The translations under genes were made by a program, and so were the position numbers. DNA of 41,504 bases. Origin: Empedobacter tilapiae. GTDB taxonomy: Bacteria; Bacteroidota; Bacteroidia; Flavobacteriales; Weeksellaceae. Below, piece after piece: positions 12,913 through 41,433 of the stretch. A model generated the notes under the pieces. That model saw nothing but the letters and a program-made list of their open reading frames with translations, did not search any database and was not told where the DNA came from. The stretch covers positions 1 through 41,504 of the forward strand of contig NZ_SRPE01000018.1 of assembly GCF_004785645.1 (NCBI RefSeq), read 5' to 3'. How positions within the stretch are numbered: the stretch's first letter is position 1; each line of letters starts with the position of its first letter.

Positions 12913-14529
12913 ATGGTGTTATTTAAAAAAATATTGGTTTTGAAATTTTTCTTACTGTTTATATTTTCTTATTCCCAAAGTTCTGTTTCTACACTTATGG
13001 ATAGTTTGGTAATTGCTAAAGACAAGAAACAAATAATTGATCTAAGTCTTAAAATTGCTGATGAACTAAAGACTGAGAACTTTACGAGATCTCAATATTA
13101 TATAAATTTAGCAAAAGAACATACCGAAAAACTAAATACCGATGCTTCTTGGAAAGATTTTTATGATAAAACAAAAAAAATTTATTTTGATATAGATGCA
13201 CTCGATTTGTTTCAGGAAGCACTTTTATCAGAGTATAATTTATACAAAAATACAAACGAAGAAAAACGTTATAAACTAGAAACACAGTTAGCTATTCTCT
13301 ATTCTCGACTAAACGACAAAAAGATAGCGCTTTATTATTTCAATAAACTTTGGAAGCATTATAGTGACAATAAAGAGTATTATTTTATGGCGCAAACCAA
13401 AACGAATATTGGAAATACTTATCTAAATTTTGACGATGCGAAAGAATCTTTAATTTATTTTTTTGATGCGTTAGAATTACTAAAATATTCTCCGAAAGAA
13501 GAGTTAGAAATTACAATCTATACCAATATAGGTAGAGCTTACAGTAAGCTGAATGAAAATACGAAGGCATTAGAATATCTGTTAAAATCAGAACAAAGAA
13601 TAAACAAAAATACAACTGCAGACACAAAATCTTGGATATACTTGTGCCTTGCTCAACTTTATATACAAACCAAGAATGCAGATCAAGCAATATATTTTGC
13701 GAAAAAATCAGAAAATTTTGAACTTACACATAATACTTTTAGTCAGAAAGATCTTTTGGAAACCCTTTATAAGGCTTATTTATTAAAAAAAGATTATAAA
13801 GAAGCTGCACATTATTTTAGTCAATATGATAAAGTTCGAGAAAATCTCAATATCGAATCTAAAGCAGTTAATGTTGAAAAGATAAAAATTGATTATAATA
13901 ACAAAATTAAAGCCCAACAACAAGAAATAATAAATAATAATAAAAATTCTTCTCTTATAATTACTATTTGTATCCTGATTATTTTGTTGTTAATTTTTTC
14001 AATTCTGATTATACGTTATAAAAATAGAATTTCAAAAATAAAATTAGAACACGAATTAAAACTATATAGAGAAACTGAATTAAAACATCAACTTGAAATT
14101 CGAAACAAAGAATTAGCAGTAAAAACAATAAAAGAAACGGAACAAAAAGAACTTTTCCAATATTTGATGACTGATCTAAAAAAAATACAATCTAATGTCG
14201 AAGAAAAAGATACCAAAAATTCCGTGAATTATGTTATCAATATGCTACATCATAACTCTCATATTAACAATTGGGAAGAATTTGAGTTAAGATTTTCTAA
14301 TGTTTATGAATCATTTTATCAAAATCTTAATCATTCTCATCCAAATCTCAGTAATATGGATAAAAGAATTTGTGCATTGATAAAACTCAACCTTTCTACT
14401 AAAGAAATTGCAAATATTACGAAATCTACTGTTCGATCTATAGAAAATTCTAGAACTAGACTTCGAAAAAAAATGGGTTTAACGAATAGTAAAACTGATC
14501 TTAATAAATATTTGACAGATTTAAATTGA
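12913..14529 (+). CDS. Membrane TPR regulator with C-terminal HTH (copy 1)
   Basis: The 538-residue protein starts with a signal peptide ending near SYSQ. A periplasmic set of TPR-like helix pairs follows (~60-320; for example AKESLIYFFDALELLKYSPK, then NIGRAYSKLNENTKALEYLL). A membrane helix (~348-368, IITICILIILLLIFSILII), a coiled coil and a cytoplasmic LuxR/GerE-like HTH complete it (MDKRICALIKLNLSTKEIAN, then RSIENSRTRLRKKMGL). It is therefore a one-piece sensor-regulator whose sensing part lies in the periplasm. The secreted-protein gene starting at 14685 is the likely target. Copies 2 and 3 in this window share the architecture; copy 2 is clearly closest (shared LNIE-KAVNVE motif before the helix). 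The signal sensed is unknown. Confidence 0.85.
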   Translation: MVLFKKILVLKFFLLFIFSYSQSSVSTLMDSLVIAKDKKQIIDLSLKIADELKTENFTRSQYYINLAKEHTEKLNTDASWKDFYDKTKKIYFDIDALDLFQEALLSEYNLYKNTNEEKRYKLETQLAILYSRLNDKKIALYYFNKLWKHYSDNKEYYFMAQTKTNIGNTYLNFDDAKESLIYFFDALELLKYSPKEELEITIYTNIGRAYSKLNENTKALEYLLKSEQRINKNTTADTKSWIYLCLAQLYIQTKNADQAIYFAKKSENFELTHNTFSQKDLLETLYKAYLLKKDYKEAAHYFSQYDKVRENLNIESKAVNVEKIKIDYNNKIKAQQQEIINNNKNSSLIITICILIILLLIFSILIIRYKNRISKIKLEHELKLYRETELKHQLEIRNKELAVKTIKETEQKELFQYLMTDLKKIQSNVEEKDTKNSVNYVINMLHHNSHINNWEEFELRFSNVYESFYQNLNHSHPNLSNMDKRICALIKLNLSTKEIANITKSTVRSIENSRTRLRKKMGLTNSKTDLNKYLTDLN

Positions 14530-14568
14530 TTTTATAACTATCAATATATGAGTTGATTGATGTTTTTT

Positions 14569-14628
14569 GAGTAGTAATTGAGCATTAAAAAAATAGGTCT
14601 GAGTAGTAATATAACATCACTTTTTTTG
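14569..14628 (+). promoter_or_regulatory. Repeat-bearing promoter region before secreted gene 1
   Basis: GAGTAG (14569) is followed 11 bases on by GAGCAT (14580), then TAGGT (14594-14598) and TTTG (14625-14628). TGAGTAGTAAT itself recurs exactly 32 bases later (14568 and 14600). Repeats one or three helical turns apart suggest an activator site. The layout matches 37669 and 39771, except that TTTG lies 4 bases further from AGG. Confidence 0.5.
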
Positions 14629-14684
14629 CAAACTAAAACTTCAATTACAAGATTTGTATCGAATCACAAAATTTGATATTAAAA

Positions 14685-15959
14685 ATGAAAAAAATTCTAT
14701 TATTAGGTTTTATCCTATTATTCCAGACTGTATTTTCTCAAACTATAAATAGATTTGAGAATAAAATTAAGGCTCAGAAAACAATTACAAAAGGATGTCT
14801 TACAAATTATTTTGACGGACCATTCCCTGAAGAAACATTCACACCTTCTTGCGATGGAAGAGAAGAGCAAATTTTTACTGCAGCAATGCATAGCACTTAC
14901 TCAAATGTTAAAGTAACGGCAAATGTAGAGTATACATTTATAGTTTATCCAAATGATCCTACCAATACGTTTATTACTATTTCAAATGAAGCTGGAACCG
15001 AAATCTATGCATCAGGTTATGATTTAATCAATTGGACTCCTTCCAAAGATGAAGTAGTTAGATATTATGTACATTTAGATGATACATGTACTAATTCTAA
15101 TTATTCAGTGAAAAAATATATCAGATGCGGTGCAATACCACCAGAACCCGAATATAATTGTGACCAATCGTATGACGGACCATTTTGGGCAGGTTGTTCA
15201 ATAAGTGGTGATGCAGGATACTTAATAGCAGATGATTTTTTTATACCAAAAGATTCGGAAATATTTAAATTAAAAACATTAAAATATTTAATAGTTCCAT
15301 TGATAGGAAAAGAGGATTTTAAAAACTTTACGATTGAAATTAGAGAAGATAAGAACAACTCTCCAGGAGAAATTATCAAGTCATACGAAAATATTACAGC
15401 AACTGAAGTTATACAACATACCGAAACATTTCTTGATTATCCTACTTTTTGGACTACACTTACAATTCCTAATGGTGGTATAGAATTACCTGTAAATAAA
15501 GAAGAGAATAGCCGATATTGGGTAACAATTCAGGTTTGGTCTAAGGTTAAAGAAAACATTGCTGTTGCTGGATTTCATAGAATCAATGGTTGGGCTACAG
15601 CACCAACTTTCCAAAGTTTAGATAATCGTGAAACTTGGATTACAACTACTTATGAAGAAGATCCTGGCTTGGAAAGTATTTGGTCCTTCGATGCAGATTG
15701 CTCTAAATTAACAACTCAAGAATCTGAGAAACAAAAGCTCTCAATTTATCCAAATCCAGTGAAAGATTATTTAAAATTTACTTCAAAAAAATCAATAAAA
15801 GAATTGTCTATTTTGACCTATACAGGAGAAAAATTGATGACTTTTAAAGAATTTAAAGATAACCAAATTAACCTTTCTAATTTAAAAAGTGGAAACTATC
15901 TTGTGAAATTTACTTTAGAAAATGGAGTAATTGAAGTTTCAAAAATTATCAAAAAATAA
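14685..15959 (+). CDS. T9SS-secreted protein with C-terminal sorting domain (1)
   Basis: I start at the ATG at 14685 (424 residues); the frame is open to a TTG 12 bases earlier, but MKKILLLGFILLF is a typical signal peptide ending near FSQ. The last ~75 residues form a type A T9SS sorting domain: SIYPNPVKDYLKF, then LTYTGEKLMTFKEF and LKSGNYLVKFTLENG, ending in KIIKK. The middle holds two cysteine-containing beta-rich parts (C...YDGPF repeated near 46-52 and 160-166), suggesting two related domains with disulphides. There is no catalytic motif I recognise. It lies downstream of TPR regulator copy 1 with a repeat-bearing promoter between. Surface or extracellular role; ligand unknown. Confidence 0.85.
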   Translation: MKKILLLGFILLFQTVFSQTINRFENKIKAQKTITKGCLTNYFDGPFPEETFTPSCDGREEQIFTAAMHSTYSNVKVTANVEYTFIVYPNDPTNTFITISNEAGTEIYASGYDLINWTPSKDEVVRYYVHLDDTCTNSNYSVKKYIRCGAIPPEPEYNCDQSYDGPFWAGCSISGDAGYLIADDFFIPKDSEIFKLKTLKYLIVPLIGKEDFKNFTIEIREDKNNSPGEIIKSYENITATEVIQHTETFLDYPTFWTTLTIPNGGIELPVNKEENSRYWVTIQVWSKVKENIAVAGFHRINGWATAPTFQSLDNRETWITTTYEEDPGLESIWSFDADCSKLTTQESEKQKLSIYPNPVKDYLKFTSKKSIKELSILTYTGEKLMTFKEFKDNQINLSNLKSGNYLVKFTLENGVIEVSKIIKK

Positions 15960-15995
15960 TTTTTATCAAGACATATTAATTATCTTGATTAATAC

Positions 15996-16034
15996 AAACA
16001 GAAAAGAAACTCAATTAGAGTTTCTTTTCTGTTT
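15996..16034 (+). terminator. Terminator of secreted gene 1
   Basis: A perfect 17-base stem (AAACAGAAAAGAAACTC with its complement) around AATTA, the distal arm being T-rich. It lies 36 bases after the stop. Confidence 0.9.
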
Positions 16035-16081
16035 CAATTGGAATTTTTATATAAAACTGACTTATTTTATCACCTTTGAGA

Positions 16082-16109
16082 ATAAAAAAAGCCTTACAAT
16101 TGTAAGGAG
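16082..16109 (-). terminator. Minus-strand terminator after the RidA pseudogene
   Basis: The palindrome CCTTACAATTGTAAGG is followed on the minus strand by CTTTTTTTATT. It sits just after the end of the broken ridA-like gene and supports its former orientation. Confidence 0.75.
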
Positions 16110-16126
16110 GTTGATTCTTTTATGCT

Positions 16127-16377
16127 TTATAAAAGAATAATTAGAATTGTTCGGTTATAATTAGCAGCCCAAATCTCAATTTCTATTTTTAACTTCGGAA
16201 GTCCTCAAGCTGTTATATAAGCAATAGTCATTGAAGGGTATTTTAGACCAAATAATTTGTCTTATTCTCGTCGAAAAAATCCCAATCAATTTCTTCGGTT
16301 GACCATATATTTACTTTAGTAAAATGTTCGGGTGTTAAGTTTTGACTAATTTCCTTAAAATCATCTTCTCTTTGCAT
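16127..16377 (-). pseudogene. RidA/YjgF-family pseudogene
   Basis: Reading the minus strand from 16377, one frame gives TKVNIWSTEEIDWDFFDENK and then stops. A one-frame shift continues with KLFGLKYPSMTIAYITA, an in-frame TGA, then GLPKLKIEIEIWAANYN. Together these follow the C-terminal half of RidA family enamine/imine deaminases (VVKVNIWL...F...YFG...P..TIAYI.ALGLP.LKIEIEIWAA). The N-terminal half is missing, and there is at least one frameshift and one stop. The gene is dead but fairly recent, since the coding signal is still easy to read and its terminator at 16082 is intact. It is no longer linked to any pathway here. Confidence 0.8.
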
Positions 16378-16651
16378 TCTTGATTATTATTTTTTAATTA
16401 TTGACACTAATAGTAGTGTGAAATTAGTAGTCTATAGCAATAAATGGTTGTGTTTAGCTGAATATTTTATTATATTTACAACTATAATAACAAGATATGA
16501 ACAGATTAAGTTGTCTTCCTCCTCCAAGAGCTTAATATTACTTCAAGATTTTAAAGAAGTGCAGCGCTGGCTAATTTAGTCGGTTATTTTGCTGTACCTC
16601 AAATTCTCAATCAAATTTTAATAATATAAATTCTCGTTTCTGTAAAAAGGA
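16378..16651 (+). other. Leader region before the DMT transporter, with a possible PPP leader peptide
   Basis: TATATTTA at 16471-16478 resembles a -7 box (last base A rather than G), which would place the transcript start near 16486. The first ATG (16497-16535) opens a 12-codon frame, MNRLSCLPPPRA. Three prolines in a row near the end are a ribosome-slowing signal in general. A further frame at 16555-16630 reads AALANLVGYFAVPQILNQI, which looks protein-like but lacks a start, so it may be a gene remnant. The transporter gene follows. A regulatory leader is a possibility, not a demonstrated fact. Confidence 0.35.
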
Positions 16652-16669
16652 ATGGAGAGACAATATTTT

Positions 16670-17536
16670 ATGAAAAAATCATATTTGTTATTACACTTTA
16701 GTGTGATATTACTTGGCTTTTCAGGTGTATTCGGAAAGCTTATTTCTTTGAACGAAGGTTTGTTAACATGGTACAGAGTATTTTTCTCTGCAATTATCTT
16801 ATTTATTATTATAAAACTGCTGAAAATTAATACAAATATCAGCTTAAAAGAAAAAATAAAAATAGCTAAGATTGGTGTATTTATAACATTTTCTTGGGTT
16901 TTATTTTATGGTAGTATCAAATATTCCAACATTTCTATTGGAGTTGTATGTTATTGTATGGCAAGTTTTTTTACTGCTATTCTTGAACCTATTATCAATA
17001 AAAAGAAATTCAAATTATCAGAGTTACTTTTAAGTTTATTGACTTTATTTGGAATCAGCTTGATTTTTAGTTTTGACGCCTCTTATCGGTTAGGAATTGT
17101 ATTGGGTATTATTTCGCCTTTATTCGCTTCTTTTTATACCATTTATAATGAGAAGTTGACAATTTGCTACGATACTAAGCTTATTAATTACTACCAGATG
17201 ATTGGAGGAACTATTGGTTTAGGAGTTTTATTGCCCGCATATTTGTATTTCTTTCCAGTGGAAAATATTTTTCCTAAAGGAAAAGATACATTCTATTTAA
17301 TTATACTAGCTCTTTTTTGTACAGTAGGAGTGTATGTTTCAATCACTGAAATATTAAAAAAGTTATCCGCTTTTACTATTAATCTAAGTCTTAATTTGGA
17401 ACCCATATATGCGATTATAATAGCATTTTGGTTCTTCGATGAGGGAAAACAAGTAAATATTTCGTTTTATGTTGGATTATTTTTTGTTATTCTCTCTGTA
17501 GTTCTACAAACATTTATTTCACTAAGAAACAAATAA
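16670..17536 (+). CDS. DMT-superfamily (EamA) transporter
   Basis: A membrane protein of 288 residues from the ATG at 16670; an ATG at 16652 would add six polar residues before the first helix and is less likely. It has ten predicted hydrophobic segments arranged as two repeats of five. Family signatures are ILLGFSGVFGKLISL with TWYRVFFSAI in the first repeat, and TINLSLNLEPIYAIIIAFWF followed by DEGKQVNISFYVG in the second (the NLEPI region typical of EamA). These carriers export small metabolites such as amino acids or related compounds; the substrate is unknown. It is monocistronic, with a terminator just after it and a possible leader peptide upstream. Confidence 0.88.
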   Translation: MKKSYLLLHFSVILLGFSGVFGKLISLNEGLLTWYRVFFSAIILFIIIKLLKINTNISLKEKIKIAKIGVFITFSWVLFYGSIKYSNISIGVVCYCMASFFTAILEPIINKKKFKLSELLLSLLTLFGISLIFSFDASYRLGIVLGIISPLFASFYTIYNEKLTICYDTKLINYYQMIGGTIGLGVLLPAYLYFFPVENIFPKGKDTFYLIILALFCTVGVYVSITEILKKLSAFTINLSLNLEPIYAIIIAFWFFDEGKQVNISFYVGLFFVILSVVLQTFISLRNK

Positions 17537-17541
17537 TTTAT

Positions 17542-17574
17542 AACCTCTTGCAGTTCAACTGTAGGAGGTTTTTA
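17542..17574 (+). terminator. Terminator after the DMT transporter
   Basis: AACCTC pairs with GAGGTT and the inner TGCAG with CTGTA, followed by TTTTTAA. Confidence 0.8.
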
Positions 17575-17576
17575 AT

Positions 17577-18040
17577 GGTATTATCTTCTATATTTCTTTT
17601 TTCTTTAAAGGTTTATGTAATTATCCCATCAGAATCAATTCCTATTTATCCTGAGAAGATAGTAAGATATGATTTTTTTGGAATTATAGTAACGTTAGAG
17701 TAGTTACCTACTAGTATTAAATCGAACTATTTTATTTGTTGTCGTGTTTTGCGATTTTTTAATGTATAACGTCTTATTTATATTTTCTGCATAATAATAG
17801 TCCTTAAAAAGGATTTAGGATAGCTACTCTAATTTAAAGTAAAAAAATATTTAAATCTATTTCGAGCGTTCTTATTTGAAAACAAAAATTTAGTATGAAT
17901 ATTATTTTAATATTTTTTAAGCTATTTTTGTTGTATAAACATAAAGTTTACGTTAAAAATATAATTTTATACTATTATTTATTTAGTTTTCCCGAGATTG
18001 TAAGCAATAATAGATTTTAGCTCTTCTATTTATAATATAT
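17577..18040. other. Gap with an inverted pair of GAGTAG-type sites
   Basis: No credible gene; a 42-codon frame at 17575 has no support. TTAGAGTAG (17695-17703) recurs in exact inverted form as CTACTCTAA (17824-17832). A small hairpin TCCTTAAAAAGGA lies just before the second copy. The minus-strand copy is followed by TTTTTAAGGACTATTATT, which resembles the promoter at 37669 but lacks its TTTG. The gap probably also holds the promoter of the KAS III gene, but I cannot point to a clear -7 box. Confidence 0.35.
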
Positions 18041-19099
18041 ATGACAAATCACTTTATAGGAATAGGAAAATATATTCCAACCGAAAAAATATCAAATCAA
18101 TTTTTCGAAGAACATCAATTTTTTAATGAACAAGGAGAAATCTTAGATCAAAATAATGCAATTATATCGCAGAAATTAAAACAAATAACGGGTATAGAAG
18201 AACGTAGATATGCAAGAAATGACCAAGTATCATCCGATTTAGGATATATGGCAGCAGCTTCTGCGATAACAAATGCAAAGATTGATGCTGAAACCATAGA
18301 CTATATTATATTCGCTCATAATTTTGGTGATGTAAAACATGATACAATACAGTCGGATATGGTTCCAAGTCTTGCTGCTAGAGTAAAAAATCTATTAAAA
18401 ATTCAAAATCCTTATTGCGTAGCATATGATGTTATTTTTGGTTGTCCAGGTTGGATAGAAGGAGTAATACAAGCTAATGCATTTATAAAAGCTGGATTAG
18501 CAAAAAGATGTTTAGTAATTGGAGCTGAAACCCTTTCAAGAGTTGTAGATCAACATGACAGAGATACAATGATTTATGCTGATGGAGCAGGAGCGGTAAT
18601 AATAGAACCTTCTACAAAGAATAAAGGTATACAAGCTCATTTATCTGCTTCTTATGCCAACGAGGAAAAAGATTATCTATTCTTCGGGAAATCATATAAT
18701 AATGAGAAATGCCCGAATACAAAATACATCAAAATGTTTGGGCGTAAAATATATGAATTCGCGTTATCAAAAGTACCCTTAGCAATGAAAAAGTGTGTTG
18801 ATGATAGTACATATAAAATAGATAATATCAGCAAAATAATTATTCATCAAGCCAATGAAAAAATGGATGAAGCGATTGTAAAACGCTTTTATAATTTATA
18901 TGATCAAGATGTACCAAAAGATATTATGCCAATGAATATCTATAAACTTGGCAATAGTAGTGTGGCAACAATTCCAATTCTCTTGAAAATGATTATGGAT
19001 AATGATTTAGATAATCATCAAATAAATGAAGGAGACGTTGTTTTATTTGCATCTGTAGGCGCAGGTATGAACATTAACACTTTTATTTATCAGTTTTAA
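18041..19099 (+). CDS. 3-oxoacyl-ACP synthase III family protein (FabH-like)
   Basis: A thiolase-fold condensing enzyme of 352 residues. The catalytic triad of KAS III is present: Cys135 in DVIFGCPGWIEG, His269 in IIHQANEKM and Asn305 in KLGNSSVATIP. DGAGAVIIEP at ~181-190 is the usual Gly-rich strand. It is about 25-35 residues longer than housekeeping FabH, with an insertion after the start (ISNQFFEEHQFFNEQGEILD) and TGIEERRYA following it. It has no fatty-acid genes beside it. It may therefore be a specialised enzyme loading an unusual starter acyl group, or a second FabH. It would join acyl-CoA and malonyl-ACP, or a related pair. The specific product is not visible from sequence. Confidence 0.87.
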   Translation: MTNHFIGIGKYIPTEKISNQFFEEHQFFNEQGEILDQNNAIISQKLKQITGIEERRYARNDQVSSDLGYMAAASAITNAKIDAETIDYIIFAHNFGDVKHDTIQSDMVPSLAARVKNLLKIQNPYCVAYDVIFGCPGWIEGVIQANAFIKAGLAKRCLVIGAETLSRVVDQHDRDTMIYADGAGAVIIEPSTKNKGIQAHLSASYANEEKDYLFFGKSYNNEKCPNTKYIKMFGRKIYEFALSKVPLAMKKCVDDSTYKIDNISKIIIHQANEKMDEAIVKRFYNLYDQDVPKDIMPMNIYKLGNSSVATIPILLKMIMDNDLDNHQINEGDVVLFASVGAGMNINTFIYQF

Positions 19100-19121
19100 T
19101 TATATAAATTGAATAAGATCT

Positions 19122-19159
19122 AAGTTCTAGCTCATACAATAAGGTTAGAACTTTTTTTC
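19122..19159 (+). terminator. Terminator after the KAS III gene
   Basis: AAGTTCTA pairs with TAGAACTT across a 16-base loop, followed by seven T. Confidence 0.7.
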
Positions 19160-19212
19160 TAATAATACTGAATTCTCTATGAATTAATAACACTCAATTC
19201 ACTAAAACTTAT

Positions 19213-19874: not shown

Positions 19875-19888
19875 TTAAATAAATAAGT

Positions 19889-20080: not shown

Positions 20081-20111
20081 TTTATAGTATAAATTAATTC
20101 TTATAGAACAA

Positions 20112-32166: not shown

Positions 32167-33747
32167 ATGACACAATCTCGATTCATTATCCTTCAAATTT
32201 TTCTTTTATTCAATTTCGTTAATGCTCAGGTTAAAAATACAAGTAGTGAATCATTTTTATTAAAAGCAAAACAATATAAAAACTTAGATTGGGTTAAAAC
32301 ACAAGACTTTTTAAATAAAGCATATATTGATGCAAAAACGAATGATGAATTAGGTGTTTTCTATATAGAAGCATCCAAAATATACTCAGAAACGAATCGT
32401 TTTGATGTAGCTTTAGATTATGCTAGAAAAGCATATAAAATTTACGATGGGAAATCTCCAAAAAAAATTGCAGAGATTAATGATATGTTTGCGTTTGTTT
32501 ATTCTCAATTAAATGATACACCAAAAGCAATACAATACTATGAAAAACTACTTCAACAACATATCCAAAATAATAATAATTATGAAGAGATAAAGACTCT
32601 TAATAATCTTGGTAATGCATTTTTTTCGATTGAGAAATTAGATTCTTCAAATTATTTTTTTTCCAAAGCTTTAACTAAACTTAAGAATTATAATAATCCT
32701 GAACTTAAAGTTTTTGTTCTTGCAAATTTAGGTAAGGTGTATTCGTTTCAAGGAAATAATATCAAGGCATATGATTATCTAAATGAAGCTGAAAAGATAT
32801 TAAATCATGAAAAAATAGAAAAAAGAAAAACTTTTTCTTTGGTTTATTTCTACTTAGCTAATTATTTTAATGGTATTAAAAATTATGATAAAGCTCTTTA
32901 TTATGTAAAAAAAATGGATTCATATACAAATAAATCTAATGCCAATTTTGAATATAGAGATTTGCTTTGGACTTCTTACACAACTTTTTTGAATATAAAA
33001 GATTATAAAAGTGCTGCGATTACATTTAAAAAATATGATTCTATTCGTGAGCATTTGAATATAGAAGAGAAAGCTGTAAATGTGGAACGGACAAAGTTAA
33101 AACACGATTATGAGTCTCAGAAAAAAATAGATGAATTGATACAAACAAAAAAACAAACATATTATTTAGCTGGAAGTATTTTCCTTATTTTATGTATTAT
33201 CATTTCAATTTTATTGGTGCTTAATTATAAAAGTAAAGTTTCCAAATTAGAGTTAGAAAAGCTTCTTCAAAAAGAAAAGAATAATAAACTTGAAATAGAG
33301 AATCATATGAAAGAAAAACAGCTTGTTTACAAATCTATGGAGCAATCTAAAGTAGAGGAGGTTTTTAAATCAATAATGGAACAAATTGATCATCTTAAAT
33401 TGAAAGTACAAAACCAAAAGATAGTAGATGATATTTCTAAAATTATCATGGAGATAAAAACAAATATGAAAACCAATTCTTGGGAAGAATTTGAACATCA
33501 TTTTGTAAATGTTCATGAATCATTTTTTAAAAATTTGGAAAATAAGCATTCTAATCTCACGACTTATGATAAAAGATTGGCAGCTATGATTGTGCTAAAA
33601 TTGAATACAAAAGAAATATCCAATTTACTGAATGTAACTCCTAAAACTATAGAGAATTCTAGAACTAGGCTTAGGAAAAAACTTAATCTTACAAACACAC
33701 AAGTTGATATTTACCATTATTTAAACTCTTTCGCAACATATGAATGA
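32167..33747 (+). CDS. Membrane TPR regulator with C-terminal HTH (copy 2)
   Basis: A 526-residue paralogue of the 12913 gene: signal peptide ending near NAQ, periplasmic TPR-like helices (FDVALDYARKAYKIYDGKSP; KAIQYYEKLLQQHIQNNNNY), the LNIEEKAVNVERTKL segment shared with copy 1, a membrane helix (~335-356, IFLILCIIISILLVLNY), a coiled coil, and a LuxR-like HTH (DKRLAAMIVLKLNTKEISNL, then KTIENSRTRLRKKLNL). The recognition helix, KTIENSRTRLRKK, is almost that of copy 1 (RSIENSRTRLRKK), so both may read very similar sites. The downstream T9SS-secreted gene, 130 bases on, is the likely target. No kinase or receiver domain is present. Confidence 0.85.
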   Translation: MTQSRFIILQIFLLFNFVNAQVKNTSSESFLLKAKQYKNLDWVKTQDFLNKAYIDAKTNDELGVFYIEASKIYSETNRFDVALDYARKAYKIYDGKSPKKIAEINDMFAFVYSQLNDTPKAIQYYEKLLQQHIQNNNNYEEIKTLNNLGNAFFSIEKLDSSNYFFSKALTKLKNYNNPELKVFVLANLGKVYSFQGNNIKAYDYLNEAEKILNHEKIEKRKTFSLVYFYLANYFNGIKNYDKALYYVKKMDSYTNKSNANFEYRDLLWTSYTTFLNIKDYKSAAITFKKYDSIREHLNIEEKAVNVERTKLKHDYESQKKIDELIQTKKQTYYLAGSIFLILCIIISILLVLNYKSKVSKLELEKLLQKEKNNKLEIENHMKEKQLVYKSMEQSKVEEVFKSIMEQIDHLKLKVQNQKIVDDISKIIMEIKTNMKTNSWEEFEHHFVNVHESFFKNLENKHSNLTTYDKRLAAMIVLKLNTKEISNLLNVTPKTIENSRTRLRKKLNLTNTQVDIYHYLNSFATYE

Positions 33748-33770
33748 TTTAAACTAATTCATTATTGTTT

Positions 33771-33857
33771 TGTAGTAAATAGGTGTGAAAAAAATGATAG
33801 TGTGTGCTAAGTAGGTGGTGTTATTTTAGGATTAAATTTTAAATACTAATTGTTTTG
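33771..33857 (+). promoter_or_regulatory. Repeat-bearing promoter region before secreted gene 2
   Basis: AATAGGTG (33778) and AGTAGGTG (33810) are direct repeats 32 bases apart, the same spacing as the TGAGTAGTAAT pair before secreted gene 1. TTTTAGG (A of AGG at 33828) lies 29 bases before the G of TTTTG (33857), the spacing seen at 37669 and 39771. The repeats themselves are more degenerate than in the other copies. Confidence 0.4.
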
Positions 33858-33877
33858 TAAGACTAAAAACAAATAAT

Positions 33878-35509
33878 ATGAAAAAATTAATTTTATCTTT
33901 TAGTATTTTATTCGCAACAATATCGCAAGCACAATGGACAACGGATACAAATACAAATTCAGTTATTTCCTTAAAAAATGGTGGAGCTTCTTTTTCAGTA
34001 GCTACAAGCGATGGGAAAACATACGTTGGGTTTTGGAAAAAAGTAGATTCACCTATACTTTATGAGTTAAGATTACAATTGTTGGATAAGAATGGACATA
34101 AACTTTTTGGAGAAGAAGGAAAGTTAATTAGCAATCAAATTCCAATGTCTAGTTATACTATGGTTGAAAATACTATTTTAGACAAAGAAAACAATTTATA
34201 CATAGGTATAACAGGAAGTGGAAATGGGACTTTAGCATTTGTTTATAAAGTAACGCCTAATGGTGATTTACCTTGGGGGCTAAATGGAATTGAATTAGGA
34301 GAAGGATATTTACCTACTATTTTACCTTTATCTAATGGTGAAATTATGATTAGTTATTGGCCTTCTAGTAAAGTAAATGCTCGTCTTCAGAAATTTACAA
34401 GCGAAGGAAAACCAATTTGGATAAATCCATCAATCATTTATTCCGATGAGATATCTAAAAGTACTGTACCATCTAAACTTTATGAACAAAGTAATGGAAA
34501 TGTAGTTGCTGTTTTTCACAAAATTACAACACGTAATTATACTAATTTATTTGCACAGAGTTTTGATAACAAAGGAAATACAGTATGGGAAAAGCCTGTA
34601 ATGTTATCGGATAAAACATCTACTTGGAGTTCAAAAAATAGTAGTTTTTTTGAAAACGATGTAATTTATTATGCTTTCACAAGTGGAATGGCAGGACGTT
34701 CAGATTCGTATTTAGTAAGAGTCAATTCTGACGGTTCTCTACCTTGGGGAATTGGAGGTGTTGATTTTAATACAAATAATGCTTATTTCGAAAAAGATAT
34801 ACAAGTAGCCTCGCAAAAAGGGACAGATCATATTTGGGCAATTTCGACTTATAATAGTGCAAGTTCACAAAATTATATAGGTGAATATGTTCAAAAATTT
34901 GATAAAAAAACAGGACAAAGATTATTTTCTGATAATGGAAAAGAAGTATTTCCTATTTCTTTAAATAATGCTAAAGCGCATATAGGAAATTTATTATTAG
35001 ATAATGATAAACCAGTTTTTGCATATGATAATCGAAAAGAATTTACGGTTCAAAAATTTACAACACACATTACGAGATTAAATAGTAATGGAGAATTTGA
35101 TTTAAAAGAAGAAACATTACCATTGCTAACAAGAGAATCATTTAAATCTCATCATAATTTAGTTAAGACATCAGAAGATGAATTTGTTTTAACCTTTAAT
35201 GAAAATGTAGATAATACAGAAACATCTGTATATGGTCAAAATATTATTTTACCTAAATCTGATTTAGCAATTAATGAAATTCTGGATTCTGAATTCAAGA
35301 TTTATCCTAATCCAACAACTTCATTCTTATATTTTTCTAAAGAAACAGAAAATGCTAGAGCAGAAATATATAATTATGTTGGTCAACTTCTAAAAACAGA
35401 GATAATTAAAGATAATAAGGTTTCTGTAGAAAAGCTTCCAATGGGAAATTATATTTTAAGGACAGACTACAAAGGTAAAATCGTAAATTTGAAATTTATA
35501 AAAAAATAA
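33878..35509 (+). CDS. T9SS-secreted protein with C-terminal sorting domain (2)
   Basis: The 543-residue exported protein begins with a signal peptide ending near SQAQ. The body, to ~460, is a run of repeats with strand-turn-strand character; the pattern L-P-W-G (DLPWGLNGIEL near ~130 and SLPWGIGGVDF near ~285) and YVQKFDKKTGQRLFSDNGKE suggest a beta-propeller-like repeat fold. The last ~75 residues are a type A T9SS sorting domain (FKIYPNPTTSFLYFSKE, then NYVGQLLKTEIIKDN and PMGNYILRTDYKG, ending KFIKK). It is the presumed cargo of the TPR regulator copy 2 module. No catalytic residues can be assigned. Confidence 0.85.
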   Translation: MKKLILSFSILFATISQAQWTTDTNTNSVISLKNGGASFSVATSDGKTYVGFWKKVDSPILYELRLQLLDKNGHKLFGEEGKLISNQIPMSSYTMVENTILDKENNLYIGITGSGNGTLAFVYKVTPNGDLPWGLNGIELGEGYLPTILPLSNGEIMISYWPSSKVNARLQKFTSEGKPIWINPSIIYSDEISKSTVPSKLYEQSNGNVVAVFHKITTRNYTNLFAQSFDNKGNTVWEKPVMLSDKTSTWSSKNSSFFENDVIYYAFTSGMAGRSDSYLVRVNSDGSLPWGIGGVDFNTNNAYFEKDIQVASQKGTDHIWAISTYNSASSQNYIGEYVQKFDKKTGQRLFSDNGKEVFPISLNNAKAHIGNLLLDNDKPVFAYDNRKEFTVQKFTTHITRLNSNGEFDLKEETLPLLTRESFKSHHNLVKTSEDEFVLTFNENVDNTETSVYGQNIILPKSDLAINEILDSEFKIYPNPTTSFLYFSKETENARAEIYNYVGQLLKTEIIKDNKVSVEKLPMGNYILRTDYKGKIVNLKFIKK

Positions 35510-35511
35510 TA

Positions 35512-35544
35512 AAAAAAAGTCCATATGAATATGGACTTTTTTTT
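35512..35544 (+). terminator. Terminator of secreted gene 2
   Basis: AAAAAGTCCATAT and ATATGGACTTTTT pair around a 2-base centre, with a long T run after. It starts right after the stop codon. Confidence 0.9.
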
Positions 35545-35661
35545 ATTACTAATGTAATATTCTAAACTTTTTCTGAATGCTTTTTAATTTATTATTTTAA
35601 TATCTTGTAAGTCTTTGTTATTTAATATTTTATTTAGACGTAAATAACTTGTTTTTATTCT

Positions 35662-36264: not shown

Positions 36265-36284
36265 AAATTTTTAAATTTAAATTA

Positions 36285-36332
36285 TACTATACTTTTTATT
36301 GTTGCAAAACTAAATATAGTAATTTACCTTTG
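36285..36332. promoter_or_regulatory. Divergent nitroreductase/HxlR promoters with operator candidate
   Basis: TACCTTTG (36325-36332) is the plus-strand -7 box, with TTG at 36302 about 20 bases upstream. CAAAACTA (36305-36312) is a minus-strand TAGTTTTG box. TACTATA (36285-36291) and its exact inverse TATAGTA (36315-36321) lie 30 bases apart, three helical turns, flanking the minus promoter. Confidence 0.6.
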
Positions 36333-36360
36333 CAATAACGGTTAAAATTGATAGTAACAG

Positions 36361-36708
36361 ATGTACAGTATAGACAATAAACAATACCCATGTTCCACTA
36401 GTTTGACAATGAGATATATAGGAGGAAAGTGGAAAGCTGTAATTCTCATACATTTAATAGAAAAAAAACGCTATAGTGAATTGAGGAAAGAATGTAAAGT
36501 GATTACAGAAAGAACATTGAGCCTACATTTAAAAGAAATGGAAGCAGATGGTTTGATTACCAGAACAGTACATACTAGTAAACCTCCTCTTAAAGTAGAT
36601 TATGAATTGACACAGTTTGGAAAAACACTTATTCCTGTGCTTAAAGCTATTGCAGAATGGGGGAAAGATACAGCAGAGAATAATGATAGAATAAGTTTTG
36701 TGAAATAA
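36361..36708 (+). CDS. HxlR-family transcriptional regulator
   Basis: The 115-residue winged-helix regulator has the whole HxlR domain: PCSTSLTMRYIGGKWKAVIL with the conserved N-terminal Cys11 that acts as redox switch in YodB/HypR-like members, then RYSELRKECKVITERTLSLH (recognition region), and VHTSKPPLKVDYELTQFGKT forming the wing. It is divergent from the nitroreductase gene and is likely to control it through the inverted repeat in the shared promoter. Electrophile or quinone sensing is inferred from the Cys and the neighbour. Confidence 0.92.
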   Translation: MYSIDNKQYPCSTSLTMRYIGGKWKAVILIHLIEKKRYSELRKECKVITERTLSLHLKEMEADGLITRTVHTSKPPLKVDYELTQFGKTLIPVLKAIAEWGKDTAENNDRISFVK

Positions 36709-36833
36709 AGGGATTACTAAAAAATGATAGAATAAGACTAAATCTCAAATTGAGAGTATTCTTTTCTAATTCTTTTTTTATCAGGTTTCTAATTTCTATA
36801 ATTAAAAATAGTATCCAACAATAGAAAATTATA

Positions 36834-37289
36834 TTACCTTTTTCTTTTATCACTTTTTAAATTGTGTTTTACGATTTCTAAATGTGTGTAAATTTGTGAT
36901 AGTTCATTTTTCTGTTTATTTATACTTTTGATCATTGATTCAACTACATGGAATGGAATAGTAGCTTCTTGATTTAAAGCATTTTCAATAGTGTCTTCTT
37001 TTAAATTTTTTTCTTGAGAGTGGATAAGGTTTCTTAAATAATCGTTATAGGTAAATGAATCGATAAATAATGATTCCCCTAAGTTGTATTCTTCGATTAA
37101 TTCTTTGATTAATTGAGAGCATTCTAAAGAAGTATTTCTTGTTACGAAAAAATCAAACCTTAACTTTTCAATTAGTTCATTTTCTCTATCTACTCCATAA
37201 TCTTTACTAAAACTTTTCTTTGCATATATAAGGCTGATTAATGCAATAATTACTCCTATAATGGATAATAATATTCTAAGATTGTCCAT
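36834..37289 (-). CDS. Unknown protein with N-terminal membrane anchor
   Basis: A 151-residue protein with one N-terminal helix (~4-22, ILLSIIGVIIALISLIYA) and a charged, helical remainder ending in KSDKRKR. I recognise no family. It is on the minus strand, convergent with the HxlR gene and with no clear partner. The orientation after the helix is probably cytoplasmic, given the positive charge beside it (KKSFSK). Real coding is likely from its length and codon use; function is unknown. Confidence 0.65.
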   Translation of the reverse strand: MDNLRILLSIIGVIIALISLIYAKKSFSKDYGVDRENELIEKLRFDFFVTRNTSLECSQLIKELIEEYNLGESLFIDSFTYNDYLRNLIHSQEKNLKEDTIENALNQEATIPFHVVESMIKSINKQKNELSQIYTHLEIVKHNLKSDKRKR

Positions 37290-37668
37290 AATCTATATTT
37301 GTATGTTTCCATGTAAAAATATTAACTATATAATGTTTGTTTTTACGGTTTTACGTAATTAGATTCAAATACCTACTTATTCTCGAAATAATGAAATAAT
37401 CTCATTGTTCGCCCATTATTTATTTTCACAACTTGTAACATCATTATAAAACTAAAACAGTAGAAGTAGAAAGGAATAATTATAAATAATCAAGAAATTG
37501 CTTGTCATTTAGACGAATAAATAAATAGTGAAATACACTTTAAAATTAATTAGCATGATGGAAAAAAAGTTTAAACACAGATGAAGGCTTTACATTATCG
37601 TTAAAAAAAGTATTGATTTTAGTTTGATAAAAAACGCTTTTCATTGATTTTCAGTTTGTAAAAAAATA
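37290..37668. other. Gap with nothing recognised
   Basis: AT-rich sequence without a credible gene, hairpin terminator or long repeat. Short helical-looking frames near 37440-37530 have no start and are broken by stops. Confidence 0.4.
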
Positions 37669-37724
37669 GAGTAGTGAATGAGTATTCTATTTTAAGGTTA
37701 TTATTTTATTGATACTTTTCTTTG
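37669..37724 (+). promoter_or_regulatory. GAGTAG-repeat promoter, copy A
   Basis: GAGTAG (37669) and GAGTAT (37680) are 11 bases apart, then TTTAAGGTTA (37691-37700) and TTTTCTTTG ending at 37724. Over 56 positions it matches the element at 39771 without gaps, with 40 identities by my count. It would drive the short frame at 37747, or a longer transcript into the third TPR regulator gene. Confidence 0.55.
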
Positions 37725-37746
37725 CGCATCTTTAGCCAACCTAAAA

Positions 37747-38010
37747 ATGTGTAAGAAAAAAAATAAGTATATTATTTCTATTTCAATATGTCCTTCGAGG
37801 AAAGTTAGGGTATGCTTTTTTTTTATGTTTTTTGCATTTATTTGTTATCAGGTTTATACTTTTAAAAAGATAATTTTTTTGCATCAGAAAGACGATTATT
37901 CAAACGCATCTATACATGATTACACCTATAACTGTTGGGAAAGTAATTTTTATTTAATACAAAAAATTACAAGACCACCTCCTTCTTTAATTAATGTTTT
38001 ATTTTTCTAA
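37747..38010 (+). CDS. Possible small membrane protein behind promoter copy A
   Basis: The 87-codon frame starts 23 bases after the TTTG of a promoter-like element that otherwise precedes a secreted-protein gene. It opens with lysines (MCKKKNKYIISISI) and has one hydrophobic segment at ~27-38 (VCFFFMFFAFICY), followed by a polar tail with Pro-Pro-Pro. No family is recognised and the composition is borderline, so it may be a remnant of a former exported protein. Without the promoter resemblance I would not list it. Confidence 0.3.
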   Translation: MCKKKNKYIISISICPSRKVRVCFFFMFFAFICYQVYTFKKIIFLHQKDDYSNASIHDYTYNCWESNFYLIQKITRPPPSLINVLFF

Positions 38011-38196
38011 ACTTTCTTTAATTAAAAGTAACTTATGTATCATCATCAGATACTAATTTAATATTAATTAAATACTACTGCTTAGGTAGGGTTTGGGATT
38101 TTTATATTAAAATCATTGGATGTGGTAATGATACATTCAAAGATATTAGATTCAATATACGGTTATTGATTTACAATTTTAATCAATTTGATTTTT

Positions 38197-39708
38197 ATGA
38201 AGAAAATACACTCATTTATATTACTATTAATATCAATGGTAGTATTAAATGCGCAATCAAATACTTTCAAAGATATAGACAAGTTGTTAGAGTTTTCTCA
38301 GCAAGAATATGCAAAGATGGAACTAATATCTTCTTTGAAAAATGCAAAAAAAGCATTAACTCTATCAATAAATAATAAATATGACAAAGGGATATGTAAG
38401 GCTAATCTTAATATATCTAACGTACTATTAACAATAGGAATGTATAAAGACGGACTTTTTTATCTTGAAAATGCAGTATTAACCTCCTTTTATAAATCTA
38501 CGCCTTCGATGCAAGCTGAAGTTTGCAGATTGAGAGGGCGAGCATATACAAGTCTTAAATTATACGAAATATCTATTAAAGAGTATAGAAAGCAATTGAA
38601 AATATCAAAAAATATAGAAGATAAAGATTTAAAAGATTTATCTATTTTGTTTACTCATCAGAATTTATCAAACACTTTTCAGATTCAAAACAATAAAGAT
38701 TCAGTATTCAAACATCTAAAGATACAGGAAGAGCTGTTAAAAAAACATTTCAACGAAAAAGATGACTATTATTATTACTCTACTTTATATAATCAATATG
38801 GGGATTATTATTTGAGTCTTCAACAGCATGAAATTGCCAATGAGTATTTTAATAAATCTATCAAATTACTTCAGAAGAACGATGCACAGTTTCTCTACAC
38901 TACTTTCATTGGACTTGCTAAATTAGAAGAAAGAAGAAATATAGAAAAGACAATCATTTATTATAAAAAGGCACTTGAAAATGCAAAAAAAATAGGATCG
39001 AAAGAAACCGAGATGTATATATATAAAGACTTGTCAAATTATTATATAACAAATAATATAAATAGTAAAGAGGCTACCATTTATTTATACAAATATCAAG
39101 CTTTGAATGATTCTCTTGATGTAAAGAATAAAGAGCTTGTTCAATTAGCCTTCGATCAACTTATTGACCAAAGAGACCAAAATCATAAAGAAAATAGTAA
39201 ACAAATAGTTGTTTTTTTCTTCATAGTAGTATGTATTTCATTTGTAGGAATGATTTTTTGGTATGTACGTTTTCTTAAAACAAAGAAAGAGATTTTGAAT
39301 ATCATGGAAATTAAAACAATACTTCGGAGTAATATAAAAGAAGTTGGAGTTGAAATAGATAAGAAGCAAAAGAAAATTGAAGAATTAGAATTGAAAGCGA
39401 ATAATTATTTTTTTGAATTAAGTAATTTGGTTGAACAAAATTCTCCTCATTTTTGGGGTCGTTTTCAAGAGATTTATCCAAGCTTTTCAAGCAAAATATT
39501 AGAAATAAATTCAACTTTAAAAGTTTCAGAACTCACTTTTTGTTCATATATCTATTTAGGTTTTTCAAATAAAGAGATTGCAAAATATACATATAAATCT
39601 ATAAGAACAGTAGAGAATAATCGCTATAATCTTCGAAAAAAATTGAAGTTAAATACTGAAGAAGATTTTACTATATGGCTTAGAAAGTTTGTAGATAAAT
39701 TACAATAA
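38197..39708 (+). CDS. Membrane TPR regulator with C-terminal HTH (copy 3)
   Basis: Start chosen at the ATG at 38197 (503 residues); the open frame extends to a TTG three codons earlier. The protein has a signal peptide ending near LNAQ, TPR-like helices (LKNAKKALTLSINNKYDKGI; HEIANEYFNKSIKLLQKN), a membrane helix (~342-362, VVFFFIVVCISFVGMIFWYV), a coiled coil and a LuxR-like HTH (FCSYIYLGFSNKEIAKYTYK, then RTVENNRYNLRKKLKL). It is more distant from copies 1 and 2 than these are from each other, and its recognition helix differs. It precedes the secreted gene at 39865 by 156 bases, with GAGTAG repeats between. Confidence 0.83.
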   Translation: MKKIHSFILLLISMVVLNAQSNTFKDIDKLLEFSQQEYAKMELISSLKNAKKALTLSINNKYDKGICKANLNISNVLLTIGMYKDGLFYLENAVLTSFYKSTPSMQAEVCRLRGRAYTSLKLYEISIKEYRKQLKISKNIEDKDLKDLSILFTHQNLSNTFQIQNNKDSVFKHLKIQEELLKKHFNEKDDYYYYSTLYNQYGDYYLSLQQHEIANEYFNKSIKLLQKNDAQFLYTTFIGLAKLEERRNIEKTIIYYKKALENAKKIGSKETEMYIYKDLSNYYITNNINSKEATIYLYKYQALNDSLDVKNKELVQLAFDQLIDQRDQNHKENSKQIVVFFFIVVCISFVGMIFWYVRFLKTKKEILNIMEIKTILRSNIKEVGVEIDKKQKKIEELELKANNYFFELSNLVEQNSPHFWGRFQEIYPSFSSKILEINSTLKVSELTFCSYIYLGFSNKEIAKYTYKSIRTVENNRYNLRKKLKLNTEEDFTIWLRKFVDKLQ

Positions 39709-39770
39709 ATCTATTGTTATAAAGTTTTTTTGTTTGTTAAGTTATTGGGATATAGTATTGTATTTAAATA

Positions 39771-39826
39771 GAGTAGTTGTTGAGTAGAAGGTTTTTAGGT
39801 TAATAATTGAATCATTATTTTCTTTG
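39771..39826 (+). promoter_or_regulatory. GAGTAG-repeat promoter, copy B
   Basis: GAGTAG at 39771 and 39782 (11 bases apart), TTTTTAGGTTAA (39792-39803), and TTTTCTTTG ending at 39826, 38 bases before the ATG of the secreted gene. With TTTG as the -7 part, AGG sits near -33 and the repeats just upstream, an activator-type position. Confidence 0.55.
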
Positions 39827-39864
39827 GACACCTAAAAAATATAACAACCAAATAAATATAATCA

Positions 39865-41433
39865 ATGAAAAAGATAATTAATCTTATACTTTTATTACTA
39901 TTCTGTAATATAATAAAATTAGGTGCACAAACATATGCTATACCTCCTAATGGTCAAACGACAATTAATGGCGTTAATATTAGTAGTTCTTCAGTAGGTT
40001 TTGTTGATCAATGGCCAGTAGCTTATGCTTCATTACCTTGTTATCAATTAGGAGCAAAGTCTATACGAGTAGGATATAATGCTTCTAATGCCAATGGAGT
40101 GGCAGATGCACCTTGGGTTGTAACTTTAAAATTTGATAGGCCTGTCAATAATTTAGTATTTGTAATTGGAGCTACAGGGAGTTCTCCAGTTCCTTCAGGA
40201 AGAGAAGATTTTAACTTTACAGCTAATCAAGGAGCTGTCACAATTTCTGCAATAACAAGTTGTAATACTACTATTACAGGAAACAAGATAACAGGTGGAC
40301 TATATGGTGATTATGGTGGTGGTGGTGCCTTTAAAATAACAAGTACAACTTGGTTTACACAATTAACAATATCTGGACAAGGAGGTTTAGCAGGATCTCT
40401 TATTGCATTAAAAGATTTCATATCTAAACCATTATGCTACAATTCTGGTTTAGGTGGAACACCTGACGGTTATACGAATGTAGGAATTACAACTCAAACT
40501 AAACAACAAGTTTGGCCAGATAATGTTCCAAATGGATTTTTAGCACTAGAATCTAGTACAAAAGGAATGGTAATTACTAGAGTTCCTCATGTTAGTGCAA
40601 CACCAAACCTAGTTACAGATGCAATAAAAGATCCAAAAGAAGGAATGTTGGTGTACGATATCCAAGATAAATGTACCAAGTTATACAATGGGACTATTTG
40701 GAATTGTATAAAAAATACGTGTGATTCTAGTGGAGAAACACCAAGAAAAATAAGATTAGGCTCTTATGGTTCTTGGGTAATTGGAGGAAATGCTTTTCCT
40801 GCCTATAATAGCCAATTAACTAATCCTGTAAATTATGGTCCAACAGGAACCTTCAAAGGGATTACTGGTTTTGAGTTTTCAAATATTACATCGCTTCTAG
40901 AAACGACTACAGCAGCTCAATTAAAAGTTAATTATGATATTATTAATGGCTTTTTTGAAAAAGTTTCGAGTACAAATGCACAGAAAATTGCTGATTATGT
41001 AAAATTAGGAGGTGTAGCTATTATTAACATAGATAATCCGCAGTACGATTTTAGTGCAATTTTAAATTCGTTTGGGATTACAGGTCCTTATAGTAGTTAT
41101 GGAGAAATAAATGCGCGAAGTTCAATAACCAATCAGTTAAGTAATGTTTTTGGAGATACAAAAGATATTGCGTTGTTAGGCTCTGATACACAAGGAAGAG
41201 TTTTGGCAAATCAATTACCATCAACAAGTACTATTTATGCTAATGAAACAGCTGTAGGAGGAGGTGTTGCAGTTTGGACGATAGGAGGAGATTTTAAAGG
41301 AAAAGTTATTTTCGTTTGGGATGAAGGTATATTTAGAACGCCAATATCAGGAACAGTAATCGATACATCTCAAGAAAAATTTGTTCATAATTTAATGGCT
41401 TACGCTTTAGTGCAATTAGGATTTCAACCATAA
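39865..41433 (+). CDS. Secreted multidomain protein, module 3 cargo
   Basis: The 522-residue exported protein has a signal peptide ending near KLGAQ. An N-terminal beta-rich domain (~20-190; VTLKFDRPVNNLVFVIGATG, Gly-rich loops) is followed by a flavobacterial linker segment with NGFLALESSTKGMVITRVPH and EGMLVYDIQDKCTKLYNGTI (~215-285). The C-terminal domain (~290-520) has alternating strands and helices (KIADYVKLGGVAIINIDNPQ; GKVIFVWDEGIF), resembling a class I glutamine amidotransferase-like Rossmann fold, as in DUF4350-type proteins. No T9SS tail is present. It follows TPR regulator copy 3 and precedes another exported gene 21 bases on, so a cargo operon is likely. The enzyme-like domain lacks an obvious catalytic Cys. 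Confidence 0.78.
   Translation: MKKIINLILLLLFCNIIKLGAQTYAIPPNGQTTINGVNISSSSVGFVDQWPVAYASLPCYQLGAKSIRVGYNASNANGVADAPWVVTLKFDRPVNNLVFVIGATGSSPVPSGREDFNFTANQGAVTISAITSCNTTITGNKITGGLYGDYGGGGAFKITSTTWFTQLTISGQGGLAGSLIALKDFISKPLCYNSGLGGTPDGYTNVGITTQTKQQVWPDNVPNGFLALESSTKGMVITRVPHVSATPNLVTDAIKDPKEGMLVYDIQDKCTKLYNGTIWNCIKNTCDSSGETPRKIRLGSYGSWVIGGNAFPAYNSQLTNPVNYGPTGTFKGITGFEFSNITSLLETTTAAQLKVNYDIINGFFEKVSSTNAQKIADYVKLGGVAIINIDNPQYDFSAILNSFGITGPYSSYGEINARSSITNQLSNVFGDTKDIALLGSDTQGRVLANQLPSTSTIYANETAVGGGVAVWTIGGDFKGKVIFVWDEGIFRTPISGTVIDTSQEKFVHNLMAYALVQLGFQP

Follow-up and report, generated by a model that had tools for sequence, protein, structure and literature searches.

Predicted transmembrane one-component regulators paired with exported cargo genes and phased promoter repeats in Empedobacter tilapiae

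The 41,504-nucleotide contig NZ_SRPE01000018.1 of Empedobacter tilapiae (RefSeq assembly GCF_004785645.1; Bacteroidota, Weeksellaceae), analysed whole and called the window here, belongs to a 3.71 Mb draft genome. It carries three genes for putative one-piece transmembrane regulators (P0001–P0003, copies 1–3), each followed on the same strand by a gene for an exported protein (P0004–P0006, cargos 1–3; Table 1). An earlier sequence-only reading had described these pairs and proposed that each regulator controls its neighbour, and the open reading frames (ORFs) of regulators and cargos were all present where it had placed them.

A home-made heuristic script predicted genes, signal peptides and membrane helices, and assigned one signal peptide and one internal membrane helix to each of P0001–P0003. 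All three score above cut-off for the tetratricopeptide repeat (TPR) family TPR_12 of Pfam. The LuxR-type helix-turn-helix (HTH) family GerE (PF00196) is matched above its gathering cut-off of 23.5 bits by P0002 (27.9 bits) and P0003 (25.9 bits). P0001 has no GerE match at E ≤ 0.1 in the Pfam scan, and copy 1 can be aligned through the HTH to copies 2 and 3, at 33% and 24% identity, respectively. The layout proposed earlier, of signal peptide, TPR, one membrane helix, coiled coil and LuxR-type HTH, is thereby borne out in all three, with copy 1 below Pfam detection of GerE. No kinase, ATPase, receiver or other phosphorelay domain was found in P0001–P0003 at E ≤ 0.1 in the same scan, in agreement with the earlier reading. 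An AlphaFold model of copy 2, computed from a nine-row alignment (mean pLDDT 75.8, pTM 0.50), consists of a TPR solenoid (residues 42–276), a single long helix (280–389) that spans the membrane segment and continues into the coiled coil, and a helical HTH bundle (439–520). From the signal peptide and the single membrane helix we infer that the TPR solenoid is periplasmic, and the coiled coil and LuxR/GerE-type HTH cytoplasmic. The modelled solenoid matches many solenoid kinds, including LGN, Rap, NprR and KLC, and the TPR fold as a pointer to the ligand was rejected because these matches are generic.

The regulator-to-cargo gaps measure 155, 130 and 156 bp for copies 1, 2 and 3, in line with the 130–160 bases noted earlier. 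Sorting tails of the type IX secretion system (T9SS; Por_Secre_tail, PF18962/TIGR04183) are present in two of the cargos, the number proposed earlier: P0004 and P0005, with 40.1 and 40.8 bits (cut-off 23). P0006 yielded neither a T9SS tail nor any other family at E ≤ 0.1 in Pfam and NCBIfam, and the scans found no SusC/SusD-type domain in P0004–P0006. Homologues of cargo 3 stand behind related regulators at two other loci (L039, 66% over 334 columns; L042, 43% over 333 columns). The proposal of a threefold module stands in so far as there are three pairs of a regulator and an exported gene, but the regulator tree divides them into two lineages with different cargo types. Copies 1 and 2 lie within an eight-member clade in which every regulator is followed by a T9SS gene (SH-like approximate likelihood ratio support 100), whereas copy 3 belongs to a separate set of 12, six of which have GINT-type neighbours.

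Table 1. Positions of the paired genes, their promoter repeats and a nearby small ORF in the window
Feature	Position	Strand	Description
Regulator copy 1 (P0001, 538 aa)	12913..14529	+	Signal peptide, TPR, membrane helix 349–367, coiled coil, C-terminal HTH; T9SS-cargo clade
Direct repeats before cargo 1	14568..14609	+	TGAGTAGTAA 14568–14577, TGAGCATTAA 14579–14588, TGAGTAGTAA 14600–14609; offsets 0, 11, 32; putative regulator sites
Cargo 1 (P0004, 424 aa)	14685..15959	+	Exported; T9SS type A sorting tail; 64% identical partner in locus L054
Regulator copy 2 (P0002, 526 aa)	32167..33747	+	Signal peptide, TPR, membrane helix 334–352, coiled coil, GerE-like HTH 467–512
Direct repeats before cargo 2	33777..33819	+	AATAGGTGTG at 33778, AGTAGGTGGT at 33810; offset 32, 7/8 match
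Cargo 2 (P0005, 543 aa)	33878..35509	+	Exported; T9SS type A sorting tail; 65% identical partner in locus L051
Small ORF ending ..ITRPPPSLINVLFF	37747..38010	+	Precedes copy 3; without a signal peptide call
Regulator copy 3 (P0003, 503 aa)	38197..39708	+	Signal peptide, TPR, membrane helix 337–355, coiled coil, GerE-like HTH 450–490; separate branch
Direct repeat before cargo 3	39770..39790	+	AGAGTAGTTG 39770–39779, TGAGTAGAAG 39781–39790; offset 11, 7/8 match; similar element in L039
Cargo 3 (P0006, 522 aa)	39865..41433	+	Exported; without T9SS tail, without family match

Related regulators were surveyed with a profile (A2) built from 16 members, which matched 34 of 60 genomes of the bacterial family at E ≤ 1e-25, with up to 22 matches per genome among those listed. 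The survey drew on 104 sources, namely 80 family regions, 20 regions of the same genome or genus, the window, and three loci from an initial contig scan with weak patterns that the profile searches replaced. The 80 family regions, like 40 regions from other families, were hand-picked among the matches listed, mostly for near full-length coverage, and are not a random sample. A regulator was counted if the profile match reached into the HTH, the protein had at least 400 residues and a membrane helix was called; a signal peptide was not required, and regulators sharing identical last 250 residues were merged, leaving 117 distinct regulators. Under a stricter definition that includes the signal peptide, 107 of 140 candidates pass before merging. 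As controls, a further 20 regions of 20 kb each were taken blind from the genomes surveyed and processed with the same gene-calling script.

The next gene lies on the same strand in 81 of the 117 cases, and it encodes an exported protein in 48, another HTH regulator in 16 and a protein that is not exported in 17. With regulator neighbours removed, 48 of 65 same-strand downstream genes are thus exported. Exported second genes account for 91/305 same-strand pairs in the random regions (31/136 when the gap is 60 bp or longer) and for 208/552 elsewhere in the regulator loci (112/289 with such a gap). The enrichment of exported genes downstream of such regulators, a test set beforehand, is therefore clear against both backgrounds at gaps of 60 bp or more, and supports the earlier suggestion that each regulator probably controls its neighbour.

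The enrichment is sharpest for T9SS cargo. Using a tail profile made from 31 tails, none taken from a gene downstream of a regulator, we found a T9SS tail in 32/65 same-strand +1 genes and 9/42 divergent −1 genes, compared to 2/35 convergent +1 genes, 4/60 same-strand −1 genes, 0–8% at all further positions and 7/425 genes of random regions. The two enriched positions are those at which the cargo promoter abuts the regulator gene. In NCBIfam, TIGR04183 is matched by 32 of 61 complete downstream genes (four incomplete genes of the 65 being omitted) and by no more than two of the 64 control genes sampled, an upper bound because the control results show only families with two members. BNR/Sortilin-type propellers make up 14 of the 61. 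GINT-type exported proteins are found within three genes of 22/117 regulators, as opposed to 0/305 control genes, and GINT-type and T9SS genes never co-occur within three genes of one regulator. Of 58 T9SS tails in the E. tilapiae genome, four were found next to a regulator of this class (two in the window, and one each in L031 and L032); regulator-paired cargos are a minority of all T9SS cargos.

Regulator and cargo are inherited together. The label "T9SS downstream" changes seven times on the regulator tree, compared to a mean of 28.2 when shuffled (0/500 as low). Mirror-tree correlations are rho 0.88 for the 14 BNR-propeller pairs (0/2000 permutations) and 0.41 for all 41 T9SS pairs (0/1000 permutations), and in 28 of the 41 the closest relatives of regulator and of cargo belong to one and the same other pair. 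The pairs of copies 1 and 2 and their homologous pairs retain regulator, cargo and a similar gap despite different flanks: none of up to six flanking genes of the copy 1 pair is common to any of five homologous pairs, and the copy 2 pair has no flanking genes in common with L051. Close relatives (L059/L060, L066/L114) do have flanks in common. We propose that regulator and cargo make up a self-contained module whose two genes move and duplicate together.

The gap between regulator and T9SS cargo frequently contains short direct repeats spaced by helical turns. With lags of 9–45 bp examined, the lag spectrum of the T9SS pairs peaks at 11, 21–22 and 32–33 bp, whereas random intergenic DNA has no peak at lag 11. 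A non-redundant set of 32 was obtained from the 41 T9SS pairs by removing nine hand-listed near-copies. In this set, two 8-mers matching at 7/8 or better stand at the phased lags in 24 pairs (mean 6.5, maximum 12 in 300 local shuffles) and perfect 8/8 repeats in 11 (mean 0.34, maximum 3 in 300). At lag 11 the count is 15/32, compared to 7/141 control intergenic regions (Fisher 3e-8). Among the 32 same-strand T9SS pairs before redundancy removal, 8/8 repeats occur in 13 at helical lags, and each of six shifted lag sets gave zero. We take the phased repeats to be probable binding sites of the regulators.

The repeat units differ between regulator clades: TGAGTGG, TGAGTAG or TGAGTAT in the copy 1 clade, AGTGTGTG in L051 and partly in copy 2, GTCAC in part of the BNR group, ATGTA in the L032 group and TGCACACC in L096/L103. 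Similarity of the recognition helices correlates with similarity of the units (rho 0.24, 0/2000 permutations, 27 distinct helices). In the window, a perfect repeat pair is present only before cargo 1, and the arrays are probable sites that are clear for cargo 1 and weaker for cargos 2 and 3; the middle unit of cargo 2, AGTGTGTGCT at 33799, was assigned by place alone (offset 21), as in L051. The pattern GAGTAG-N4-28-GAGTAG occurs at two places in the genome, before cargos 1 and 3. The sequence-only reading had suggested cross-talk between copies 1 and 2, and their recognition helices do match (IENSRTRLRKK in both); however, the exact element GAGTAG occurs in both the cargo 1 and the cargo 3 promoter, and that of cargo 2 carries the AGTAGGTG/AGTGTGTG unit. 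For cross-talk at the DNA level, copies 1 and 3 would therefore be likelier partners than copies 1 and 2, even though the latter two have the more similar helices.

A lag-11 repeat, GAGTAGTGAATGAGTAT at 37669–37685, resembles the copy 1/copy 3 unit and lies upstream of both the RPPP-ending small ORF and regulator 3. It is a possible autoregulatory site. As a set, regulator upstream regions contain perfect pairs at helical lags in 8/89, compared to 0–2 at shifted lags. For GINT-type regulators, the repeat scan gave no consistent picture, except in WIN_37 and L039.

The closest described system is SusR of Bacteroides, which is reported to sit in the membrane, to sense in the periplasm and to bind DNA in the cytoplasm through a part that lacks significant similarity to other known factors (PMC3878776). 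SusR (NF058541) and the window regulators each combine, within a single chain, a TPR-like sensor, one membrane helix and a C-terminal HTH, and their genes lie beside those of exported proteins. In a search of ten SusR-family proteins (L190–L199), the HTH end of our profile matches all ten (E 1e-8 to 1e-5); with the full profile, the best match extends over positions 8–471 of 486 at E 5e-15; seven of the ten have a signal peptide call and all ten a membrane helix near residues 322–368. In the reverse direction, P0003 scores 17.6 bits against NF058541, far below the cut-off of 480 bits and so not a member, P0001 and P0002 have no match at E ≤ 0.1, and the genome of E. tilapiae has none at E ≤ 1e-30. 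Judged from these profile matches, SusR is a distant homologue of the window regulators with similar architecture. The targets differ: SusC/SusD and glycan enzymes for SusR, presumably T9SS cargo or other surface proteins for the regulators considered here. The spacing of the sites differs as well, since those predicted for SusR are direct repeats at a distance of 67 or 77 bp (PMC3878776), compared to 11, 21–22 and 32–33 bp here, within the lags examined. Because SusR has the same architecture, tethered one-component control is already known in kind, and the question of how a membrane-tethered HTH reaches its promoter, raised earlier as open, has a precedent in SusR, which is described as working in this way (PMC3878776).

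Other known families are more remote. The BT3442 family (NF053779) is matched by 10 of the 16 profile members (best 3e-20), the match in copy 1 spanning residues 84–535; however, copy 1 reaches 44.6 bits against a cut-off of 940 and is not a member. At E ≤ 1e-60, a very strict threshold that makes the result little informative, no match to this family was found in 198 genomes. BT_3442 itself is described as a multi-domain TPR protein, its gene standing last in a putative operon where lipoprotein signal peptides are frequent (PMC2954219). FimS-type sensors (NF053520) are matched by 6 of the 16 members (best 2e-28), in copy 2 over residues 60–211 of the TPR region, but that family is named a histidine kinase and the window regulators have no kinase domain. 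One-component regulators of the ToxR/CadC type likewise combine a membrane-tethered DNA-binding domain with a periplasmic sensor, but their DNA-binding part is N-terminal, the opposite domain order, and a winged HTH. Among the results listed by searches of the open-licence literature there was no paper on T9SS-paired regulators of this kind, which does not prove absence, and the pairing with T9SS cargo and the short phased arrays look new.

We consider it likely that these proteins are SusR-like one-component transmembrane transcription factors, each binding phased repeats and activating the neighbouring exported gene. A periplasmic event, the presumed signal, would alter the pairing of protomers through the continuous helix and the coiled coil. 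The HTHs would then occupy the direct-repeat array on one face of the DNA helix, at offsets of 11, 21–22 and 32–33 bp. The array typically begins 80–150 bp before the start codon of the exported protein, and its effect would be activation rather than repression. Each regulator lineage would have its own repeat unit and its own cargo family. How a cell chooses which T9SS cargo to make is, to our knowledge, little studied, and the seven genomes examined carry 52 to 136 T9SS tails each. The PorY-PorX-SigP cascade is described as controlling parts of the T9SS secretion machine itself (PMC4800418). Recurrent paired regulators with predicted sites would offer directly testable cargo-specific switches, would tie SusR to a branch with a LuxR/GerE-like HTH, and would supply helix–repeat pairs useful for decoding DNA recognition by membrane-tethered factors.

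Several results weigh against this model. The lag rule was formed and tested on the same sequences, so the lag spectrum and the shifted lags are its sole guard. Control intergenic DNA contains 8/8 pairs at helical lags in 7/141 regions (1–6 at shifted lags), and its peaks at lags 14 (17/141) and 21 (14/141) mean that lag 21 alone is not specific; these control peaks and the post hoc choice of lags slightly lowered our confidence. Eight of the 32 non-redundant T9SS pairs have no repeat at 7/8 or better and 21 have none at 8/8, no convincing array was found by scanning one BNR subgroup of seven, and in the non-T9SS class the repeats are weak, with 19/40 at helical lags compared to 7–12 at shifted lags. 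The helix–unit correlation falls to 0.13 for distant pairs alone, and that test took four chosen non-T9SS rows and only rows having a repeat. Reversed, the GAGTAG pattern is found four and six times on the two strands, so its two matches are notable by place, not number. Among the neighbours, 17/65 same-strand downstream genes are not exported, 36/117 regulators face a convergent gene and 46/117 lack any T9SS or GINT-type gene up to three genes away. The regulator layout is also found in other families of the phylum (37 regulators), but a T9SS gene lies same-strand downstream of just two of them and divergently in two; 10/19 same-strand non-regulator neighbours there are exported, several of them large and TonB-receptor-like by eye only, and these counts come from regulator regions alone. 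Linked genes also yield congruent trees without functional coupling, so the trees speak for inheritance as a unit only. Finally, T9SS genes not paired with a regulator, intended as a negative control, have repeats at 7/8 or better in 12/20 and at 8/8 in two.

These unpaired genes raise the idea that the repeats belong to another factor, such as a general surface-gene activator, or to promoter architecture, the TPR-HTH protein having some other role. Six of the genes come from random regions, and two of these have repeats at 7/8 or better and none at 8/8. However, nine of the 12, read post hoc, stand no more than two genes away from a TPR-HTH regulator or share a locus with a merged one; L076 gene 7, for instance, comes after a BNR regulator that had been merged as a copy. 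Three others are second T9SS genes by BNR-type regulators in orthologous loci (L075 gene 3, L084 gene 5, L076 gene 5) and contain a (G/T)TCACA pair at lag 22, like the GTCAC unit. They may be second targets, with more than one target per regulator; the match of unit to regulator among the near-regulator unpaired genes covers only these three loci. Since the units vary by regulator clade and weakly track the recognition helix, and random intergenic regions lack the lag-11 peak, we regard another factor as quite improbable. The regulators might instead act on distant genes, and their adjacency to exported genes would then reflect surface-protein islands in which neighbours are jointly gained, lost and duplicated. 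Linkage alone predicts congruent trees, the many regulators without a T9SS or GINT-type gene nearby fit this explanation, and exported genes are indeed commoner elsewhere in the loci than in random regions, where an exported gene follows an exported gene in 34/82 same-strand pairs (8/36 when the gap is 60 bp or longer). Such an origin nevertheless appears unlikely, as the T9SS enrichment is restricted to the two promoter-abutting positions, the phased repeats are located at those positions and the pairs are retained without common flanks.

What the periplasmic part would sense invites two further suggestions. A rather unlikely one is that the regulator is a dedicated export gauge, whose TPR solenoid would bind the unexported form, or a segment, of its own T9SS cargo en route to the translocon, the complex adjusting transcription of that cargo through its private helically phased array. 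If so, the family would be a set of feedback loops running in parallel, each for a single cargo and several to a genome. For the 14 BNR-propeller pairs, the correlation with the cargo is stronger in the TPR part than in the HTH (partial rho 0.81 vs 0.14), and well-conserved N-terminal repeats, compared to the HTH at about equal identity, give 0.60–0.81 vs 0.43–0.60. This tracking is a weak hint of cargo sensing, confounded by domain length and conservation. The other suggestion, which we hold to be very doubtful, is that the TPR part reads a secreted peptide, with the cargo as output. Proteins of 87–245 residues ending in RPP[PT], candidate processed peptides or surface proteins, recur near copy-3 type regulators (the small ORF of the window, L039, L056, L057, L067, L088, L091, L095, L099 and L121), and the ORF of the window is possibly part of a copy-3 type cassette. 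A scan near related regulators gave 17 matches in 1867 kb, 11 of them real-looking by eye, compared to two short chance-like matches in 400 kb of control DNA, with a motif picked after examples had been seen; those of L039, L088 and L121 have a signal peptide call. The modelled solenoid also resembles peptide-binding TPRs, Rap and NprR among them, but TPR solenoids are all alike and the fold reveals no ligand, and apart from the window, where the ORF precedes copy 3, none of the 11 lies in a locus with a T9SS-labelled regulator.

Variants of the regulator genes were also seen. In L036, L108 and L109 a polytopic membrane part (314 residues, four or more helices) takes the place of the TPR in front of the HTH, and the L036 gene adjoins a GINT-type protein gene. 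Two or three genes of the TPR, membrane helix and HTH type stand in tandem in L088, L127, L129, L029 and L070. At the left edge of the window (43–1755), a gene for an exported QVGINT-type protein is followed by two small HTH genes, the like of which are also found near regulators in L027, L039, L043 and L048. Both contig ends lie inside such cassettes, so the assembly may have broken there. Elsewhere in the window, a fluoride riboswitch (RF01734, 50.5 bits) at 7433–7501 stands directly before a gene for a multi-helix membrane protein (7533–8840), whose product by eye resembles a ClC-type channel or antiporter.

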